A DNA stretch of 62,950 bases from Campylobacter sp. (GTDB taxonomy: Bacteria; Campylobacterota; Campylobacteria; Campylobacterales; Campylobacteraceae): positions 1 through 62,950 of the forward strand of contig JAGBJQ010000096.1 in NCBI GenBank assembly GCA_017934385.1. The letters are read 5' to 3'. A program made the position numbers and the translations under genes. Position 1 is the stretch's first letter; every line of letters starts with the position of its first letter. Below, in pieces: positions 21,609-62,177 of the stretch. The notes under the pieces are model-generated. The model was not told the origin of the DNA, searched no databases, and was given only the letters and a program-made list of their open reading frames with translations.

Positions 21609-24600
21609 TTACCAACTGATACGCCTATTGCGGTAGGTTCTTCCCGCACTTTCATTTGTGCCACCAGTTGAAGCACTTGCATCGCTTTCTCCTACAAAGT
21701 TACCGACATCATCTGCCTTACCTTTGATAGTACCTTCACCCATCCAAGAACCAGCAGGGTTAAATCTTACCTCAATAGGATTATAATATTGAGGCACACC
21801 AGAAGCTGCATAAGAAGAAGCGTAATCATTTCTTCCTACTCCATCTTCCTCATACACCCTAGTTCTATCATGTGCAGGGGTATAGATAAGCCAAGGATTT
21901 GTAAGTATCCTGATAGTAGAAGCTGCGCGATTTCCAGAATTTATAGTAATAGTCTGAACTCCATTTGCAAAACCAGCTCCATCATTTGGATCAGCCGCCG
22001 TAGCCACTCTTACGCCTGCATTTGTAGATTTGTATCTAGAAACAAATCTATTGGCAATATTTGTACCTGTTGCGAGAGTATTTATAACCCAACCATTACT
22101 TTTATTAGTATTAATGAGCGCACCAGGATTAAGGATTCCAAAAACATTTGCCGCAGGGACAAGATATTCTAAACCAGTTCTTGATGCAGGCATAGCAAAA
22201 CAATCATTTAAATTAGCTTTACCACAATATAAATACTCATTGATAGCAATTGAGATTGGTGCGCCAGTTACACCTTCATATACATTTTCACCATCGCTTA
22301 CATCGTAAGATTTACCATAGACAAAATATGCGTATGTTCCGATATTGTCAGCGAAATTTGTATATGGTGTTCCATCGCTATACGCTGCATCATTAAGACT
22401 ATTTATATTATTTATGACAGTTGCTTTATCTGCACCTTTTGCAATCCTTGTTATATATTGATCAAAGTTTTCATTGAATATTTCAACTCCTGAACCCATT
22501 TCCACTTTTGAGCCTGCAATTTCAGACGCTGTATAAGGAATAATTTTCAAATCTTTATCAAATTTCGCCGGTTGAATTTTTCCGTTTCCTCCATCAAGAG
22601 CCACACGAGAAAAACCAAAATCACTAGCATAGATTAAAACTGGCAAACTAGGATTTTTCTGCATTCTGTCAAAGTTAAAATAAACGATTGCATTTGGAGT
22701 TTTACCCTCTTTAAATCCACGAGCCATCAAGGCAAAATTTGCTATTTTAGGATTCATTTGGCTATCTGTATCTAGTCTGTGGATAAATCCACTATTCAAA
22801 CTCGCATCGGTATAATAACTAATAGCTTGGTTTAAAGGTATAGGAAGCTGCCATTGATTAACTCCGCTAGTCATCTCTTCCCTAACGCCGCCGGCAGTCA
22901 TTTCTTTAACATTATACTTATAACATCTACTATCATAATTTGCACTAGCAACGCACTCGCCGGTAGTAAGGAAGGAGGTTCCGCGAGGGATTTGAAATGA
23001 CATTGTTTTTAAATCAGGGTATGGTTGATAATCTCGTTGGGTTGTAATATTACTAGCAACAACACCAGTTGCACAACGACCGTCGCTAGCACCAGTAGCA
23101 CTAGCACAATCATAACCAAATGTCACATCTACATCCATATCACTTGCAAATCCACAAACTTGTTGTGAAGTACCATTAGAATTTGTCGCCATTCTTCCAT
23201 CATACAATGTAGCCACTATATCCTTATAAACGCTATCATCTAAATAAGCAACGGCATTAAATTTCAACATAGCCAATTGATCTAGTTGATTTGTTACGGC
23301 TTTATTATTCGCTGGATCAACATAATTTGTGCCATCTCCAAGCACATCAATAAACAAATTATTCTCTATATCCACGGAGTTAAAATATGTAAAAGCAGCA
23401 ACTGAGGCGCCTGTTACATTGTTGTCAAAACTAGTAACGAGCGTAGCATTTGCATCATATCCAGCAACAGTTCCAGTGCCTGTAACCCAAGATAGACCGT
23501 ATGTTCCATTATCCAAGCTAGTCATAGAAATTCCAATTTTTTTTGGTTGATATCTAAGCACTAGTCCCAATGCTTTTTCTGCGTCTTTATCGCTAGCTTG
23601 TTTTATACCGACATCACAACCGATTCTACCCCTATCATCATGGACATTGCTAGTAGAGTTGATTACACATTTTGTTCCCCAATACTTATCTCGCATATCC
23701 TGGCTCTTAGGTGCAGGTTGTTCCCTAGAATCAAAGGTTTGATCTGCATAATCATCTGTCCATGAGTTGTCATAGATATTTACCATTACATCGCCGACAT
23801 TATAGTAGTTAAAAATTTCGCCCTTTGGATTATCTTTATTTTTATCGGCATACAATGTCGAAGTATATAAAGCAGCTGGGCGTTTATCTTTTTTATTTGC
23901 CTCTAAAAGACCTTGTGCTCTAAGTTCATTTGCATTATATCTTTTGAGTTTGGCTGCACCATCTGTAACATTGATATTTTTCACACTAAAATCAGCTATC
24001 ATACTTATGGCGTCTTTATCCCAAACCCTATCATATTTTGCATCAAAATCCTTGCCATTTATCAAACAGTTTTCGATTTTAGTAACTTTACCAAATTCGA
24101 CATTTTTAGAATCGCCTTTTGAGAGTTTAGATATAGCATTGCTATCCAACTCATATTTACCTTCGCCATATTTATATACTAATCCAGCATAAGGCACAGG
24201 CACATTTGCACAAGTTCCAACTGTAGATTTAAGTCCATCTTGATCTGCCAAGTCCTTTTCTATATAATAAGATTGTCCAGATATATTTTCACGGCAAGCA
24301 CCAGAAATAAATGGTTTTAGGTAAGTTGCAGTTTCTCTATATGCCAAATACGCAGTATCTTTATCTACATCCAAAGAAGCATTTGTATAACTATCTCTTT
24401 GGCTAAATCTAAGTTTGCTTAAATCTCCACCTAAAATACCATAATAGTTTGGCACAGAATTGCCTTTATAACTCTTTGCATAAAATACCTTGCTTAGCAC
24501 ATCGATATTTGATTTATAATCTCCACCTACACGCAAGTCATTTTTATTTCTTTCATCCAATGCCTCGGTGATATCATCGCTAGCAGCAGGATTTACCAAT

Positions 24601-27600
24601 TTCGCATATTTATCAGTAGCACTCATATCTGCTTCGAAATACGCAGGTCTGACTACGAAGTTATCACTATCACAAATATGGAAAGACCCGTCAGCCGACA
24701 TCTCTGTTCCGAAATACGACTGAGCGGTTTCGATCTCAGATAAAATCTTAGCCAAATCCGCATTAAAGGCTTCTCTTTCATCTTTAAATTCATCATTGCC
24801 CGATGTATCATTTAACCACGCAAGCTCTAATTCGCGTTTTTTAGATTCTTCTAGCTCTATTTTATATCTGCTTACCCCATATTGTTCAAGTAGATTAGTT
24901 ACAGATTGTGGCAAATTCATTTTTTTGTTTATATATTTTTCATATAAACGCTCTGTTTGCAATCTGATATAATACTGTGTTACATTTTCGATAGCGACAG
25001 GTTCGCCATCGACATACTCATATAAAACAGTGCTATTGACATCAAGAGCCAAATTTTCCAAATTTATCGGTCTAGTCGCAACGAAATTTTCCAGTCCTCT
25101 TGGATAGTAACTAAACATAAATGTTACACCCTTAAAGGCGTCTTCTATCTCCACCTCATCGATAGGAACGATTAGTTTCTCATCTGTTTGTTTCTCTTGG
25201 AATTTCGTATTATGATCAACTCCTCGCACACCGTTGAATTTAAACGGAAGCTTTGTTTTGTTATCGATATAGTAGCAACTACCCTTATCGCTAGCTCTAA
25301 TTGCAGATAAGAAAATCGGACCTTCTAGGTCAAATTTTTTCAAGCTACCATCAGCAAGAGGATAGTCGATTCCCATTCTACCATTTGCCAACTCTTTTGT
25401 TTTTATAGGATAACAACTACCGTCTGCACGCTTAGCAAAGATATTACTAAACGCATCGCACAAATCTACACTAGAATTCTTTTTATTCCAATCAGAGCAA
25501 TCCGTATTATTATTTATCAAATTATCAGTAGGGCATGGGAACAAATCATTAATATCAGGTCTAAATACCATATTTACCTTAAATGGTAACTCTGCAACCT
25601 GAGTATATAACCTATCATCTTGTTGATTTGTTTTATCTGTATCTTTTAAATCTTCAAAATTTTGATTTACGATTTTAAGACCATTTAAAAACGCAATTTC
25701 TACATCTTGGGCAGTTTCGCCCTTACACATTGACAGTTGAGCCTCTGGCAAAGTGATTAAATCATTTGAATCAGCCAATCTCATCTTATAAGTTGCTCTA
25801 TAACTCATAGGACTATATTTAAATGTGTTACCAACAGTAGCATTAAATTCCAAATATGCAGACTGTCCTATATTAAGTCTTCCACCGCCATTTGGACTAT
25901 CGCTTCCGACACTTCCAGCATCTTTTCCTAAATAAAACCTCGGAGAATTATTAATAAGTCTCATAAAAGTCCTATCTTTATACAAATCCGGGGTTGCGCT
26001 ACTTGCTCTTTGTATCGGATCAGAATACGCACCAGCCATATTATCTGCAAGATATACATAATTCGCACTATTTAATTGATCAAAATTTAGTGAAGTATTA
26101 TCTACACCAGACGAATTTGGCTGATATGTGTTATAAGCACCTCTGTTTAGTTGCACTTCCAAATCATACGCATCTTCACCATTTGTATCGTAATTACGAA
26201 TCTCGGTTCTGTAATATAGCGTTTCGCCTGCTACTACGCTATCTACTGGATCTACATTCTCTGGTTTAGCTTTTTTAGCACCATTTACCTCATAAAAACC
26301 AAGCCAACCAGCTGTATCATAAAATCTTTGAACATAACAAAGTTTAGGAATATACATATCGATTGAAATTCCAATAAATGGTATAAAAGCACGGTTTGTC
26401 ACATGTTCAGTCATTGGAGTCATTGTTATTCTTGCAGAAAGTTGGCTTTGAGAATTACTAAGTTTATCAGAAATATCAAATTCATCTTTATCATAAGCTT
26501 GATGATAGCCACTTTCGCCTTTTAGTTCATATTCTCCATCATCATCTAATTCCAACCAAGTTTTTGAACCGTTAAACATAGATTTTGTATTATATTTATT
26601 GTTTGGTAATTTATTATTGCTAAAACTAGCTTTATCTTTTGCTACAAATATACCTTCTGTTGGTTGAATATAGTTACCCCTGTTAGCACCAAAGCTTCCA
26701 ATTATAAATTTTCCTTGAACATCTCCTGATTTTGGAGTATAAAAACCTTTTAAATCATAATCAACACTAATAGCACACTGTTCTATGGTTTTTGTTATAC
26801 CCTGATTTGCAAAATCTGCTGGGATAGAAGGTTCTAGCGCTAAATATCCATCGTAAATAGTAACATTTTTTGGTTTGAAAACCAACTGTATATACTCATC
26901 TGGATCACCAGTTATACCTGCTTTTTTAGCCTCTGCAAAATTATTTTCCTTCAATTTATCTTGACTATCCATAGTTTTATCATAAACCAAAACTACATAC
27001 CAACCGCCAAAAGGAAGACGATATGTAGTATTTGATATGATATAAGCATCATCAGGATTTTTTAGAACTGTTGCGGCACTTCTTGACCATACCATATTAC
27101 CGCCGTATTTTCCGTTTTGATAGTTCGGATTGTCTTTGGTGGCAGTTATATCGCCTACTGCTATGTTGATTTCCGTATCATAGTCTTTAAAATTTTCTTT
27201 TATCTTATCTGTAATATCAGCAGAGCAAGTATAGTTCATATTATATCTTGGATTTGCGGCGTTTGAGGTTCTCCTAGATGAGTTAAAGGCAAAATTACCT
27301 TGACAATTTTCTCTTTTGATAGGATAGACACTGCCACTTCCTACTTTTAATTTTACATCGTGATAACCTGCTATTTCCTTTATTTCAAGGACTTTTGGTA
27401 GTCTTTTACAAGTAACACCTTTTTTAGCGGCTTCTGCATTATCATTCGCATCACAATTTGAATTACCAAGAGTAATATTGCTCATTTTGCCGTGACTAAA
27501 TATATGACCAAACCAATATAATCTTGCAAAAACAATATCATCTTTGGTTACACCTTTTGGAAGCCTGATTTTATCTTTTGAACTATTGAAAGCCCCGCTT

Positions 27601-28100
27601 ATACCACCGTTGTTAATGTAGCCACCTGGCCAAGTAGGATCATCAGTGATAATATCGCCAGGCATAGTTTGGATAACAGATTCTCCTGCCGTAACCATAT
27701 CGCCAAATACAAAAGTACCTTCTCCACCAAATCTATGGCTTAGGGAATTTTGTTGATCATATACATTAGTAAGGCTTATATTACTAAATTCAATTAATTG
27801 TTTTTTGCCGTTTTCATCATACCATTTATTGGGTGAACCGTCAGGATTAGTTGGTCTAAGACCGCCAAAAACACCTACATTGTTCGTCCCGGTGCCACCG
27901 TATGTTATAATACCTAAGTGTTCACCAAGCGGATCGGATGGAATTTTTCCGTCATTTGGAATCTCATCAGCCCTAGGAGTAGCTGGGCTAATCTTTAAAT
28001 TGTGACCATCAGCCGAACTGTCTGCATAAACAGAAATTGTCAGTCCAAACAAAATAAATATAGCAGATAATGCTCTGCTTAATACCTTTTCTTTTTTCAT
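21609..28100 (-). CDS. Very large exported protein, 2163 residues, DUF11-like surface protein
   Basis: It opens with a signal peptide (MKKEKVLSRALSAIFILFGL, cleavage probably after SVYA). About residues 130-420 contain a beta-rich module seen in DUF11-type secreted proteins: DIVFARLYWFG, a cysteine-bearing body, then GGWYVVLVYDK and NVTIYDGYLAL. Around 600-760 a DUF11-like segment follows (VAGETLYYRTEIRNY). The remainder is Asp/Asn/Tyr-rich with many paired cysteines. I see no membrane anchor, RTX repeat or autotransporter barrel; the end is RNRRISW. The start has a strong GGAGGT. Base composition is more AT-rich than neighbours. Function unknown; a surface or secreted role is inferred. Confidence 0.8.
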   Translation of the reverse strand: MKKEKVLSRALSAIFILFGLTISVYADSSADGHNLKISPATPRADEIPNDGKIPSDPLGEHLGIITYGGTGTNNVGVFGGLRPTNPDGSPNKWYDENGKKQLIEFSNISLTNVYDQQNSLSHRFGGEGTFVFGDMVTAGESVIQTMPGDIITDDPTWPGGYINNGGISGAFNSSKDKIRLPKGVTKDDIVFARLYWFGHIFSHGKMSNITLGNSNCDANDNAEAAKKGVTCKRLPKVLEIKEIAGYHDVKLKVGSGSVYPIKRENCQGNFAFNSSRRTSNAANPRYNMNYTCSADITDKIKENFKDYDTEINIAVGDITATKDNPNYQNGKYGGNMVWSRSAATVLKNPDDAYIISNTTYRLPFGGWYVVLVYDKTMDSQDKLKENNFAEAKKAGITGDPDEYIQLVFKPKNVTIYDGYLALEPSIPADFANQGITKTIEQCAISVDYDLKGFYTPKSGDVQGKFIIGSFGANRGNYIQPTEGIFVAKDKASFSNNKLPNNKYNTKSMFNGSKTWLELDDDGEYELKGESGYHQAYDKDEFDISDKLSNSQSQLSARITMTPMTEHVTNRAFIPFIGISIDMYIPKLCYVQRFYDTAGWLGFYEVNGAKKAKPENVDPVDSVVAGETLYYRTEIRNYDTNGEDAYDLEVQLNRGAYNTYQPNSSGVDNTSLNFDQLNSANYVYLADNMAGAYSDPIQRASSATPDLYKDRTFMRLINNSPRFYLGKDAGSVGSDSPNGGGRLNIGQSAYLEFNATVGNTFKYSPMSYRATYKMRLADSNDLITLPEAQLSMCKGETAQDVEIAFLNGLKIVNQNFEDLKDTDKTNQQDDRLYTQVAELPFKVNMVFRPDINDLFPCPTDNLINNNTDCSDWNKKNSSVDLCDAFSNIFAKRADGSCYPIKTKELANGRMGIDYPLADGSLKKFDLEGPIFLSAIRASDKGSCYYIDNKTKLPFKFNGVRGVDHNTKFQEKQTDEKLIVPIDEVEIEDAFKGVTFMFSYYPRGLENFVATRPINLENLALDVNSTVLYEYVDGEPVAIENVTQYYIRLQTERLYEKYINKKMNLPQSVTNLLEQYGVSRYKIELEESKKRELELAWLNDTSGNDEFKDEREAFNADLAKILSEIETAQSYFGTEMSADGSFHICDSDNFVVRPAYFEADMSATDKYAKLVNPAASDDITEALDERNKNDLRVGGDYKSNIDVLSKVFYAKSYKGNSVPNYYGILGGDLSKLRFSQRDSYTNASLDVDKDTAYLAYRETATYLKPFISGACRENISGQSYYIEKDLADQDGLKSTVGTCANVPVPYAGLVYKYGEGKYELDSNAISKLSKGDSKNVEFGKVTKIENCLINGKDFDAKYDRVWDKDAISMIADFSVKNINVTDGAAKLKRYNANELRAQGLLEANKKDKRPAALYTSTLYADKNKDNPKGEIFNYYNVGDVMVNIYDNSWTDDYADQTFDSREQPAPKSQDMRDKYWGTKCVINSTSNVHDDRGRIGCDVGIKQASDKDAEKALGLVLRYQPKKIGISMTSLDNGTYGLSWVTGTGTVAGYDANATLVTSFDNNVTGASVAAFTYFNSVDIENNLFIDVLGDGTNYVDPANNKAVTNQLDQLAMLKFNAVAYLDDSVYKDIVATLYDGRMATNSNGTSQQVCGFASDMDVDVTFGYDCASATGASDGRCATGVVASNITTQRDYQPYPDLKTMSFQIPRGTSFLTTGECVASANYDSRCYKYNVKEMTAGGVREEMTSGVNQWQLPIPLNQAISYYTDASLNSGFIHRLDTDSQMNPKIANFALMARGFKEGKTPNAIVYFNFDRMQKNPSLPVLIYASDFGFSRVALDGGNGKIQPAKFDKDLKIIPYTASEIAGSKVEMGSGVEIFNENFDQYITRIAKGADKATVINNINSLNDAAYSDGTPYTNFADNIGTYAYFVYGKSYDVSDGENVYEGVTGAPISIAINEYLYCGKANLNDCFAMPASRTGLEYLVPAANVFGILNPGALINTNKSNGWVINTLATGTNIANRFVSRYKSTNAGVRVATAADPNDGAGFANGVQTITINSGNRAASTIRILTNPWLIYTPAHDRTRVYEEDGVGRNDYASSYAASGVPQYYNPIEVRFNPAGSWMGEGTIKGKADDVGNFVGESDASASTGGTNESAGRTYRNRRISW

Positions 28101-59509: not shown

Positions 59510-60049
59510 TTATTTATTTAATTTTGCTATTTTTTTATATATTGAATATTCAAAAAATAAATTAGCGTAAATCAAAATAATCACATAGATATGTATGAAA
59601 AAAACAAAAAAGTAAAATAAAAAAGTAATTGATTCTAGGCTCTTCATTATAAATTCTATATCTGAAACAATAGCTAAAAAAGCAAAATAAAAATTTGGGA
59701 CAAATATAAGCAAAATCGCAAAAACGCTGACCAAACAATCATCATTATCACTCAATTTGTAAAAAACATAATAGGTTTTGTATATAAAAATACCGCCAAA
59801 TAGGTAACCTAAAAAAATAATAATATTAATCAGCAAACTATCATCAGATAAAAAATTACGAAAATGCAAACAAGTCGCCAACATAATAATCAAAACTCCA
59901 ATGAAATATAAAATCCAAGAATTTTTGTTTTTTGCAGTTTTTGACATTATGTAAAATTGCTTTATTTTGATTAAAAGCACAGAAAATAAAGCAAAATAAA
60001 CCAAACCTAAATTTGTAAAGATTGTATCCGGGTGAGAATCTATACACAA
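59510..60049 (-). CDS. AT-rich multi-span membrane protein, unknown function
   Basis: 179 residues from TTG 60049. About five hydrophobic helices (LGLVYFALFSVLLIKI; ILYFIGVLIIMLATCL; a third ending FGGIFIY; CLVSVFAILLIFVPNFYFAF; and a last FFVFFIHIYVIILIYANLFF). No recognisable domain. The frame stays open upstream to a TGA at 60107-60109 and encodes one more hydrophobic stretch, but no ATG or good ribosome site is seen, so the 5-prime end may be decayed. Composition is far more AT-rich than flanking genes. Confidence 0.5.
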   Translation of the reverse strand: MCIDSHPDTIFTNLGLVYFALFSVLLIKIKQFYIMSKTAKNKNSWILYFIGVLIIMLATCLHFRNFLSDDSLLINIIIFLGYLFGGIFIYKTYYVFYKLSDNDDCLVSVFAILLIFVPNFYFAFLAIVSDIEFIMKSLESITFLFYFFVFFIHIYVIILIYANLFFEYSIYKKIAKLNK

Positions 60050-60153
60050 AAGACAAACGCTGACTATAAGTAATTGAATATGTATATATCTCTTATATTT
60101 TTTAAATCAGTTTTTATTAAGTGCATTGTTTAAATTCTTTATATTTTTCTATA

Positions 60154-62061
60154 TTATTCTAAATTCTGCTTCTTTTTCACAGCTTCGTAAATCTCATCTA
60201 CGCTGGTTAAATTCTGCTCGATAAATTTTTGCGCGCTTTGGCGGGTTTTGCGCCCGAAAATCCCGTCTTGCTTGGCTCCGACAGCCTTTTGGATAAAGAT
60301 GATTTTCTCTTTTTGACTGATATTTGCACTATCGTTTGCGTCGCGGATTATCACGACGCTGTAATTACCCTCGTCCTTTATCGCCACGGGCGCGCTCGCA
60401 GTATTTTCAGAGCCAAATTTCGCGCACAGCTGGCTGGCTAAATTTTCAAATTTACCCGCAAGCGCGATTTTTGGGACGCTGTTTTTAGCCGCTAGTGCCC
60501 CATACACGCCACCAGCTAGCACAAAAGCAGCCAAAATTTTCGCAAATTTCACAAACGCAGGGCGATTTCGCAGGCTTCTGCGATATTCGCTTGGGATTTC
60601 ACGCTGTTTTATCAGCGTCCAAACGCTACTTAGCCCCCACAGCACCGCACCGCACACGCTAGCAGCCAGAGCGAAAACACACAACACGCCCAAAATCCCC
60701 ACTAGCGCGCTTTTACCAAACGCCCCCGCCATAAATCCACACGCCCCAAGTGCGCCTAGCACCCACACTATCGCGCCTAGCACCCCCCACACAACGCGCG
60801 AGTGCGTAGGCGAGACCCTATCTAGACAGCTCCTTATCATCGCGCTCATATTTCGCGCCATTTCATCGCCGATGAAGCCCTCGCATGAGCGTTTTACGAT
60901 ATTTGTAGCCTCGTCCTCGCTAGGATTTGGCGCGCTAGCGATTTTTTTCATCGCGCTATCAAGCACGGGCTGGGCAGAGTATTTCTCGAAAAATCCATAA
61001 GCCTGACGCGCACTCATACCGCCTTGGGATTGAATTTTGACCAAATTTATGGCATCATCGGCGAATAAATCATCGAAAATTTTAGGCTTTATAAAGATGC
61101 TAAGCGGATTGCCAAAGCCCACCAAAACATAATTTTTATCAAAAATTTCAAACCTTAGCTCGACCACCTTGCATTTGCCGATATATTCGGCCTCGCACGC
61201 ACTTTCGCTAAGCTCTTCCCCGCTTTGGGTAAAGGCGATTTTGCTAGCAATAAATTCTAAATTTTGCGCGCACAAATACGCCAAAAATTCATCATTATAA
61301 GCGATTTGGCGCAGTCCGATTCTAGCGCTTGCATTTGCATTTGCACAAACGCTTCTAGTGCGGATAAAAAAGCCATTTCCCGCGCATACTTCGCAATCGC
61401 TCCAACCAGCCCCGTCGCAGACTTTGCACTTCAATTTCCCCGTGCCAGCGCATTTTTGGCACTCTTCATAGCCCGCACCACCGCATTTTTGGCAGGTTTG
61501 CATGCCCTCGACCAGGTTGGTAGAGCCGTCGCTTTGCTCCTTAATGTATGTAGCTGGGATCTGACCTGCGCCTGCGCAGACAAAGCACGGTTGTTTGCCA
61601 GCACCCTCGCATGCTGGGCAATCTTGCGTGCCTGAACCTGCGCATTTTTTGCAGGCAATTTTGCCCTCTTGGGCGCATTTTTCGCAACCCTCATAGACGC
61701 TAAATGGGCTAAACGAATAATACCTTTGCTGTGCTTGCGCGCTCGCGATTGCCGAATTTGCGCCCTCTCTTAGCGAACTAAGCAAAATTTCATGTAGTTT
61801 TTGGCTGTTTTTGGCCTCGCTCATACACTCGCTTGCATGCGCTTCAAACCCCGCTCTATCCTTGCCAAAATGGATTGAGGCGTTTTCTCCACCGGCTACG
61901 ACCTCATCGCTAAATTCGCCGTCAAATTCCCATTGAATGGAAATTTTGACCTCGCTAGGGAAAAAGTCCCCCCTAGCATTGCGCAAATCGCTAGCCTTGG
62001 CAGAGTTTTTGTCGATTAAATTTCGTAATTTTTGTATCAGTGCTTCGTATATTTCGTCCAT
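60154..62061 (-). CDS. Membrane protein with eight-module CxxC zinc array and C-terminal peptidoglycan-binding motif
   Basis: 635 residues. Residues 126-226 carry eight CxxCxxxG modules in two sets of four (Cys at 126, 137, 148, 159 and 190, 201, 212, 223), each exactly 11 residues apart, as in the DnaJ zinc domain but doubled and without a J domain. Three helices follow (about 423-446, 452-480, 502-524). The end (582-616) has DGIFGRKTRQSAQKF, matching the PG_binding_1 repeat. With three spans the zinc array should be cytoplasmic and the C-terminus periplasmic. Start is ATG 62061 and the gene is divergent from the PAS gene. I know no named function. Confidence 0.8.
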   Translation of the reverse strand: MDEIYEALIQKLRNLIDKNSAKASDLRNARGDFFPSEVKISIQWEFDGEFSDEVVAGGENASIHFGKDRAGFEAHASECMSEAKNSQKLHEILLSSLREGANSAIASAQAQQRYYSFSPFSVYEGCEKCAQEGKIACKKCAGSGTQDCPACEGAGKQPCFVCAGAGQIPATYIKEQSDGSTNLVEGMQTCQKCGGAGYEECQKCAGTGKLKCKVCDGAGWSDCEVCAGNGFFIRTRSVCANANASARIGLRQIAYNDEFLAYLCAQNLEFIASKIAFTQSGEELSESACEAEYIGKCKVVELRFEIFDKNYVLVGFGNPLSIFIKPKIFDDLFADDAINLVKIQSQGGMSARQAYGFFEKYSAQPVLDSAMKKIASAPNPSEDEATNIVKRSCEGFIGDEMARNMSAMIRSCLDRVSPTHSRVVWGVLGAIVWVLGALGACGFMAGAFGKSALVGILGVLCVFALAASVCGAVLWGLSSVWTLIKQREIPSEYRRSLRNRPAFVKFAKILAAFVLAGGVYGALAAKNSVPKIALAGKFENLASQLCAKFGSENTASAPVAIKDEGNYSVVIIRDANDSANISQKEKIIFIQKAVGAKQDGIFGRKTRQSAQKFIEQNLTSVDEIYEAVKKKQNLE

Positions 62062-62177
62062 TTCATCGCCTCAAATTTAATCCCTAATTATAATCAAATT
62101 TTGCTTTATTATTTTTCAAATTTCGCCCACCAAGGCGTAACTAGAATAAAAATTTTGTTTTATAAGCAAATTTAAAT

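Follow-up and report, generated by a model that had tools for sequence, protein, structure and literature searches.

A Campylobacter membrane protein joining a DnaJ-type zinc array, probably a single four-rung finger, to a peptidoglycan-binding-like tail

The window, which is the whole 62,950-nucleotide stretch of Campylobacter sp. DNA analysed here, carries on its minus strand a gene for a protein of 635 amino acids with eight CxxCxxxG modules, three membrane helices and a peptidoglycan (PG)-binding-like end, as a sequence-only reading of this DNA had described (Table 1). A GAGG Shine-Dalgarno sequence (62069-62072) lies 7 nt upstream of the ATG. In a conspecific genome we found an orthologue 96% identical to the window protein, and the dN/dS ratio between the two genes was 0.14 overall and 0.03 in the N-terminal domain, the highest values falling in the array spacer and the periplasmic linker (0.35 in the linker). 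The presence of this copy and the purifying selection indicated by dN/dS show that the gene is real and maintained, rather than a chance reading frame. The window protein is a genuine, uncharacterised bacterial membrane protein. Its anatomy is well supported by sequence, as regards the gene itself, its modules and helices, the family relationship of the tail and the kept domain order.

Table 1. Features of the window gene and its product, in positions of the window.
Feature	Residues	Position	Strand	Basis or remark
Whole coding sequence	1-635	60154..62061	(-)	635 aa; from the ATG at 62061 to the end of the stop codon at 60154
N-terminal alpha/beta domain	1-124	61690..62061	(-)	AF2 pLDDT about 75-96; no Pfam match
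Outgoing zinc modules 1-4 (CEKC, CKKC, CPAC, CFVC)	126-166	61564..61686	(-)	Motif scan
Spacer, predicted hairpin tip (strands 167-175 and 181-189)	163-189	61495..61575	(-)	AF2
Returning zinc modules 5-8 (CQKC, CQKC, CKVC, CEVC)	190-230	61372..61494	(-)	Motif scan
Beta/alpha domain after the array	231-345	61027..61371	(-)	AF2 model; no Pfam match
Helical region ahead of the membrane	346-420	60802..61026	(-)	AF2 model
Membrane helix 1	423-441	60739..60795	(-)	Hydropathy
Membrane helix 2; the basic loop after it (KQREIPSEYRRSLRNRPAFVKFAK) is presumed cytoplasmic	452-470	60652..60708	(-)	Hydropathy
Membrane helix 3	506-524	60490..60546	(-)	Hydropathy
Flexible linker, predicted periplasmic	528-577	60331..60480	(-)	AF2 pLDDT below 50
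PG_binding_1/3-like tail, motif DGIFGRKT	581-635	60157..60321	(-)	Profile comparisons

Comparison of the neighbourhoods of the relatives revealed no partner gene conserved across the family and, since the neighbours are not conserved, they suggest no partner. In the window, the neighbours include a gene for a divergent PAS protein; the C. showae group has a YcxB-like gene and one for a repeat protein of 111 aa, and the L037 locus has fabI-tpiA and fliQ-murB; these names were assigned by eye, except for the genes tested against Pfam. The gene is located amid ordinary chromosomal genes, e.g. trpBA or fabI-tpiA, in the window, the conspecific genome and the genomes of Helicobacteraceae-like relatives (f13). 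The 111-aa protein (L034:10952-11287), encoded directly 3' of the C. showae-group homologue, consists of (N)TFEFDGxxLKPKxGANSS repeats and has no Pfam match. Directly downstream of the homologue of a second species of the genus (G006) lies a gene for a Sel1-repeat protein with a signal peptide (L033:10962-11594); Vibrio SflA also has a Sel1-like periplasmic domain. Two further genes of the window, both on the minus strand, attracted our attention. One (59510-60056) encodes a small membrane protein inside a dip to 28% GC, and there may be a frameshift in this copy near 60000-60060, because the N-terminus of its conspecific counterpart (L032:8500-8880) differs. The other (21609-28100, in a stretch of about 35% GC) encodes a secreted-looking protein of 2163 aa, which has a signal peptide and matched no Pfam family.

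The loop between helices 2 and 3 is basic, and that between helices 1 and 2 is short and less basic, in the window protein as well as in its homologues from Campylobacteraceae. By the positive-inside rule, the N-terminus and the zinc array are predicted to be cytoplasmic and the tail periplasmic, in agreement with the topology proposed in the sequence-only reading, and the PG-binding-like domain follows the third helix in two phyla. The N-terminal domain is shared with the G326 relative (hhalign E 5e-7) and gave a weak profile match to the Azospirillum and Methylorubrum proteins (E 6e-4). With the array masked, the beta/alpha domain was homologous to that of Azospirillum and Methylorubrum (E 3.2e-6; reversed control 0.35), and it matched the Helicobacteraceae-like relatives after their array (E 2e-4). 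The comparison without the array set a profile of Campylobacteraceae and G326 against one of Azospirillum and Methylorubrum, and since both alignments are small, these deepest links of the family are probable, not certain.

The modules start at residues 126, 137, 148, 159, 190, 201, 212 and 223, giving a spacing of 11,11,11,31,11,11,11 with 27 residues between C162 and C190; the reported 11-residue period, two sets of four modules and 27-residue spacer were thus confirmed. In 20,000 shuffles of the window protein, the maximum was three CxxCxxxG modules, as compared with the eight observed, and all 16 array cysteines are kept in all Campylobacteraceae homologues. The Pfam domain DnaJ_CXXCXGXG (PF00684), which the sequence-only reading had suggested searching for, does match the window protein (29.1 bits, E 1.2e-6), yet below its cut-off of 32.7 bits, whereas the Helicobacteraceae-like relative L013 narrowly exceeds it (32.8 bits). 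The Pfam DnaJ zinc domain is a finger with two modules out and two back. In the window protein its best alignment crosses the spacer (residues 148-208, modules 3-6), and in both this protein and L013 all 65 positions of the domain align to modules 3-6.

Structure prediction, proposed earlier as a check on the array, also favoured a single finger. AlphaFold2 (AF2), run on residues 1-420 with a 12-sequence alignment (pLDDT 87.8; plasmid-derived homologues were left out), placed array strands at 134-136, 145-147, 156-158 and 167-175, followed by 181-189, 198-200, 209-211 and 220-222, in exact mirror symmetry around residue 178 with a pLDDT of about 90. Module spacing is likewise mirror-symmetric in nearly all relatives (11,11,11,22,11,11,11; 11,11,20,11,11; 11,10,20,11,11; 10,11,31,11,11). 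Symmetric or nearly symmetric spacings also occur in arrays that are unrelated or unplaced, namely those of Halobiforma (11,11,15,12,15,11,11), of a huge phage (11x4,16,11x4) and of Halobaculum (an almost palindromic row of 18 modules). Each of these arrays is weak evidence when taken singly (permutation p 0.01-0.2). Exceptions to the mirror rule are the huge-phage array L062 and the CxxxxC-variant arrays L061, L017 and Azospirillum, unless non-standard modules are counted. A two-rung counterpart is the plastid protein ZnJ6, with a module spacing of 11,32,11 and modelled zinc sites at 164/167+218/221 and 175/178+207/210, which pair modules 1+4 and 2+3 (PMC7865324). On the strength of the mirror spacing, the DnaJ profile across the spacer, the AF2 symmetry and the two-rung ZnJ6, we consider that the array is probably one out-and-back DnaJ-type finger with four predicted zinc rungs, as compared with two in DnaJ. 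The mirror pattern supports a DnaJ-like kind of pairing, in which the eight modules would predict four zinc sites, with modules 1+8, 2+7, 3+6 and 4+5 as the putative pairs; occupancy of these sites by zinc is presumed from the likeness to DnaJ.

The array had originally been described as doubled, a description better replaced by that of one DnaJ-type hairpin stretched from two to four rungs. Two tandem DnaJ-type zinc domains, each closing on itself (1+4 and 2+3; 5+8 and 6+7), would likewise be expected to give the spacing of the window array, and the 10-residue tight turn about which the Halobaculum array is mirrored speaks for such an arrangement as well. However, self-closing sets should have a turn at 145-147 and 209-211, the centre of each set, where AF2 predicts strands and a mirror about residue 178; moreover, the Pfam domain fits best over the spacer, and the relatives with 3+3 modules and the Halobiforma array are palindromic rather than duplicated. 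Module i is no more similar to module i+4 than average, and a tandem duplication of a four-module block is accordingly disfavoured by the module similarities as well as by the strand pattern. We therefore regard tandem domains as improbable.

Long arrays were also seen elsewhere. Membrane-type proteins encoded on Halobaculum plasmids (L030:4671-7115, L063 and L064) contain 18 CxxC modules each in a nearly palindromic spacing (7+2 / 2+7), which suggests a putative zinc ladder of nine rungs. Huge uncultured phages (L060, L061 and L062) encode proteins with 9-14 CxxC modules each, at several places per phage genome, and the L060 array is perfectly palindromic (5+5).

Scored alone, the last 53 residues of the window protein reached 13.0 bits for PG_binding_1 and 12.9 bits for PG_binding_3, both under the curated Pfam cut-offs. 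Small membrane proteins with a homologous tail, which matches endolysin profiles, were found in the conspecific and related genomes; such a solo tail scores 26.2 bits for PG_binding_3, above the cut-off of 24.6, and aligns with the window tail at an hhalign E of 5.8e-15. A profile of all tails matched the PG_binding_3-type regions of PDB entries 2nr7 and 7dnp (E about 1e-3; 7e-4 for 2nr7), and the isolated Azospirillum tail exceeds the PG_binding_1 cut-off (23.6 bits vs 23). The homology to a tail that passes PG_binding_3, together with the endolysin and PDB profile matches, indicates that the window tail is related to peptidoglycan-binding domains. Thus, the family relationship behind the earlier label of a PG_binding_1-like end stood, while the label itself falls short of the curated threshold. 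By analogy with these domains, the tail may bind the cell wall. The solo-tail protein has a single helix with a charged N-terminus, and its tail is likewise predicted to lie outside because of the N-in charge on that helix. At two loci (L008:998-1698 and L006:1486-2375), a gene for a zinc-ribbon membrane protein of cytoplasmic type immediately precedes that for a small membrane protein with the same PG-binding-like tail, so that zinc module, membrane part and wall tail are divided between two proteins; two other genomes (L003 and L004) have the solo tail and lack the zinc-ribbon gene.

The window belongs to a member of the Campylobacteraceae, a family that also includes a genus with C. showae-like genomes. 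The complete set of domains in this order, with the tail, recurs in G006 (879 aa), a second species of the genus, in C. showae CC57C and in four sister-genus genomes, so that the architecture search across Campylobacterota proposed in the sequence-only reading recovered the same order in other species. In seven records of plasmids of the soil bacterium Azospirillum, the N-terminal domain, zinc array, beta/alpha domain and three helices are followed by a PG_binding_1 domain and an extra C-terminal domain; the array is shorter and degenerate, with four standard CxxC modules and CxxxxC and C-x-H variants elsewhere, as read by eye. The Helicobacteraceae-like relatives (L013, L014 and L017), the G326 relative (L048) and a protein of a Methylorubrum megaplasmid (L028) are without the tail, so that the family can do without anchoring to the wall. 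The relatives outside Campylobacterota come from plasmid records (Azospirillum and Methylorubrum). A full-length match was obtained in only about ten of 397 Campylobacterota genomes, and the gene is therefore an accessory one. A scan of genome contigs with the single protein found no relatives, a scan with a six-sequence alignment found C. showae as the sole match, and viral contigs contained no relatives. The G326 relative (contig C35), the only one of the f16 family, has contig neighbours unlike those of the rest of its taxonomic order and may lie on a foreign or contaminating contig; another relative (L049/L054, G261) is interrupted by an internal stop, has short open frames and seems to be in decay.

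No family covering the window protein was found in Pfam, NCBIfam or PADLOC, and no description of it among 5.4 million open papers; this bears out the earlier remark that no described family with this order was known. Neither Pfam nor NCBIfam matched a J domain (HPD motif) in the window protein, and a PDB sequence search with it gave no match. Foldseek searches of the PDB produced weak matches for model 1, the best being the zinc region of DNAJA2 (E 0.037), and no convincing match for model 2, with no confident match for the whole model; against viral models, most matches were to short zinc proteins of the DnaJ type and extended over about 50 columns. To judge from these searches, the architecture is a new one, built from known kinds of domain.

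We propose, with a probability of roughly 0.4, that a J-less cytoplasmic zinc arm, tethered to the wall across the inner membrane, holds or scaffolds a client or partner. The cytoplasmic half would consist of the alpha/beta domain, the four-rung DnaJ-type finger and the beta/alpha domain, and the finger with its two flanking domains would hold or scaffold the client or partner, like the DnaJ zinc domain and the membrane-bound J-less plastid proteins. The three helices and the flexible linker would carry the peptidoglycan-binding-type domain into the periplasm, where, at chosen sites of the envelope, it would attach the arm to the cell wall. Client holding is suggested by analogy: the DnaJ zinc domain has holdase and oxidoreductase activity (PMC8262869), and ZnJ6 has holdase and oxidising activity (PMC7865324). 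The recurrence of the domain order in separate lineages (G006, C. showae with its congeners, and the distant Azospirillum) argues for the proposal, as do the homology outside the array, the purifying selection, the charge pattern of the loops and the signs of a ladder. Against it stand the score of the window tail below the Pfam cut-offs, the tail-less relatives, the absence of conserved neighbours, the lack of a confident Foldseek match in the PDB for the whole model and the holding of citrate synthase by ZnJ6, which is independent of its zinc fingers (PMC7865324). More tentatively, the protein might hold or assemble clients at fixed wall sites, or in response to the state of the wall, by means of a four-rung arm belonging to a modular series of 2, 3, 4, 5 and perhaps 9 rungs lengthened from the DnaJ finger. 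The earlier suggestion that the protein reports on, or braces, the envelope is a guess.

Alternatively, the tail may bind another envelope protein rather than peptidoglycan, the whole being an assembly factor for a membrane complex. This would accord with the sub-threshold tail, with the Sel1-repeat protein encoded just downstream in G006 and with SflA, a membrane DnaJ-family protein that acts on envelope machines via a periplasmic protein-binding domain (PMC7226244). However, the homology of the tail to a PG_binding_3-positive one and the independent occurrence of a PG_binding_1 domain in the corresponding position of the Azospirillum protein render it rather doubtful. We consider it unlikely that the protein is a transmembrane sensor whose array cysteines respond to oxidative or zinc stress by losing zinc or forming disulphides, the change being passed to or from the wall-bound tail. 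Although the conservation of the 16 cysteines and the redox activities of the DnaJ zinc cysteines and ZnJ6 would fit, the protein has no output domain, no regulator adjoins the gene in relatives, tail-less relatives persist, and rung number and spacer length vary among relatives, as would be expected of a scaffold more than of a tuned switch. That the gene is a mobile or defence-related accessory one, as the patchy distribution and the plasmid-borne relatives might suggest, is very improbable in view of the lack of a PADLOC match in the window protein, the ordinary chromosomal neighbours and the purifying selection.

If the wall-anchored arm exists as proposed, it would represent a mechanical or spatial link between a chaperone-type domain and the bacterial cell wall, an arrangement of which we know no description. 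If the ladder is correct, many unannotated CxxCxGxG arrays could be read by a simple rule, in which the module count, with a fold placed at the midpoint of the spacing palindrome, predicts the number of zinc ions.

Among known systems, type I DnaJ (Hsp40; PF00684) resembles the window protein in its CxxCxGxG modules, in the end-to-end alignment of its domain over modules 3-6 and in its out-and-back finger, a probable feature of the window array, but the window protein has four predicted rungs instead of two, a regular 11-residue period, membrane helices, a predicted periplasmic tail and no J domain. The J-domain-less plastid proteins of the DnaJE1 type (ZnJ6, BSD2, OR and PSA2) share with it the CxxCxGxG modules, the 11-residue period and the long central spacer. 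Like them, the window protein has such modules without a J or G/F domain, eight as compared with the four of that group; the sequence likeness seen is confined to the modules. ZnJ6, a J-less thylakoid-membrane protein of the Chlamydomonas plastid, differs in having two rungs, one reported membrane helix and no wall-binding domain (PMC7865324). Vibrio SflA, with a DnaJ domain inside and a Sel1-like domain outside, is comparable as an inner-membrane protein combining a DnaJ-family domain inside with a ligand-type domain outside (PMC7226244); it differs in its J domain in place of a zinc array, its one helix, its Sel1/TPR-type periplasmic domain and its opposite order. Finally, proteins with PG_binding_1 or PG_binding_3 domains (endolysins; PDB 2nr7 and 7dnp) have the tail motif IQ..(8-12)..DG.FG.KT...A in common with the window protein, in which the tail is joined not to a lytic domain but to membrane helices and a predicted cytoplasmic zinc finger.
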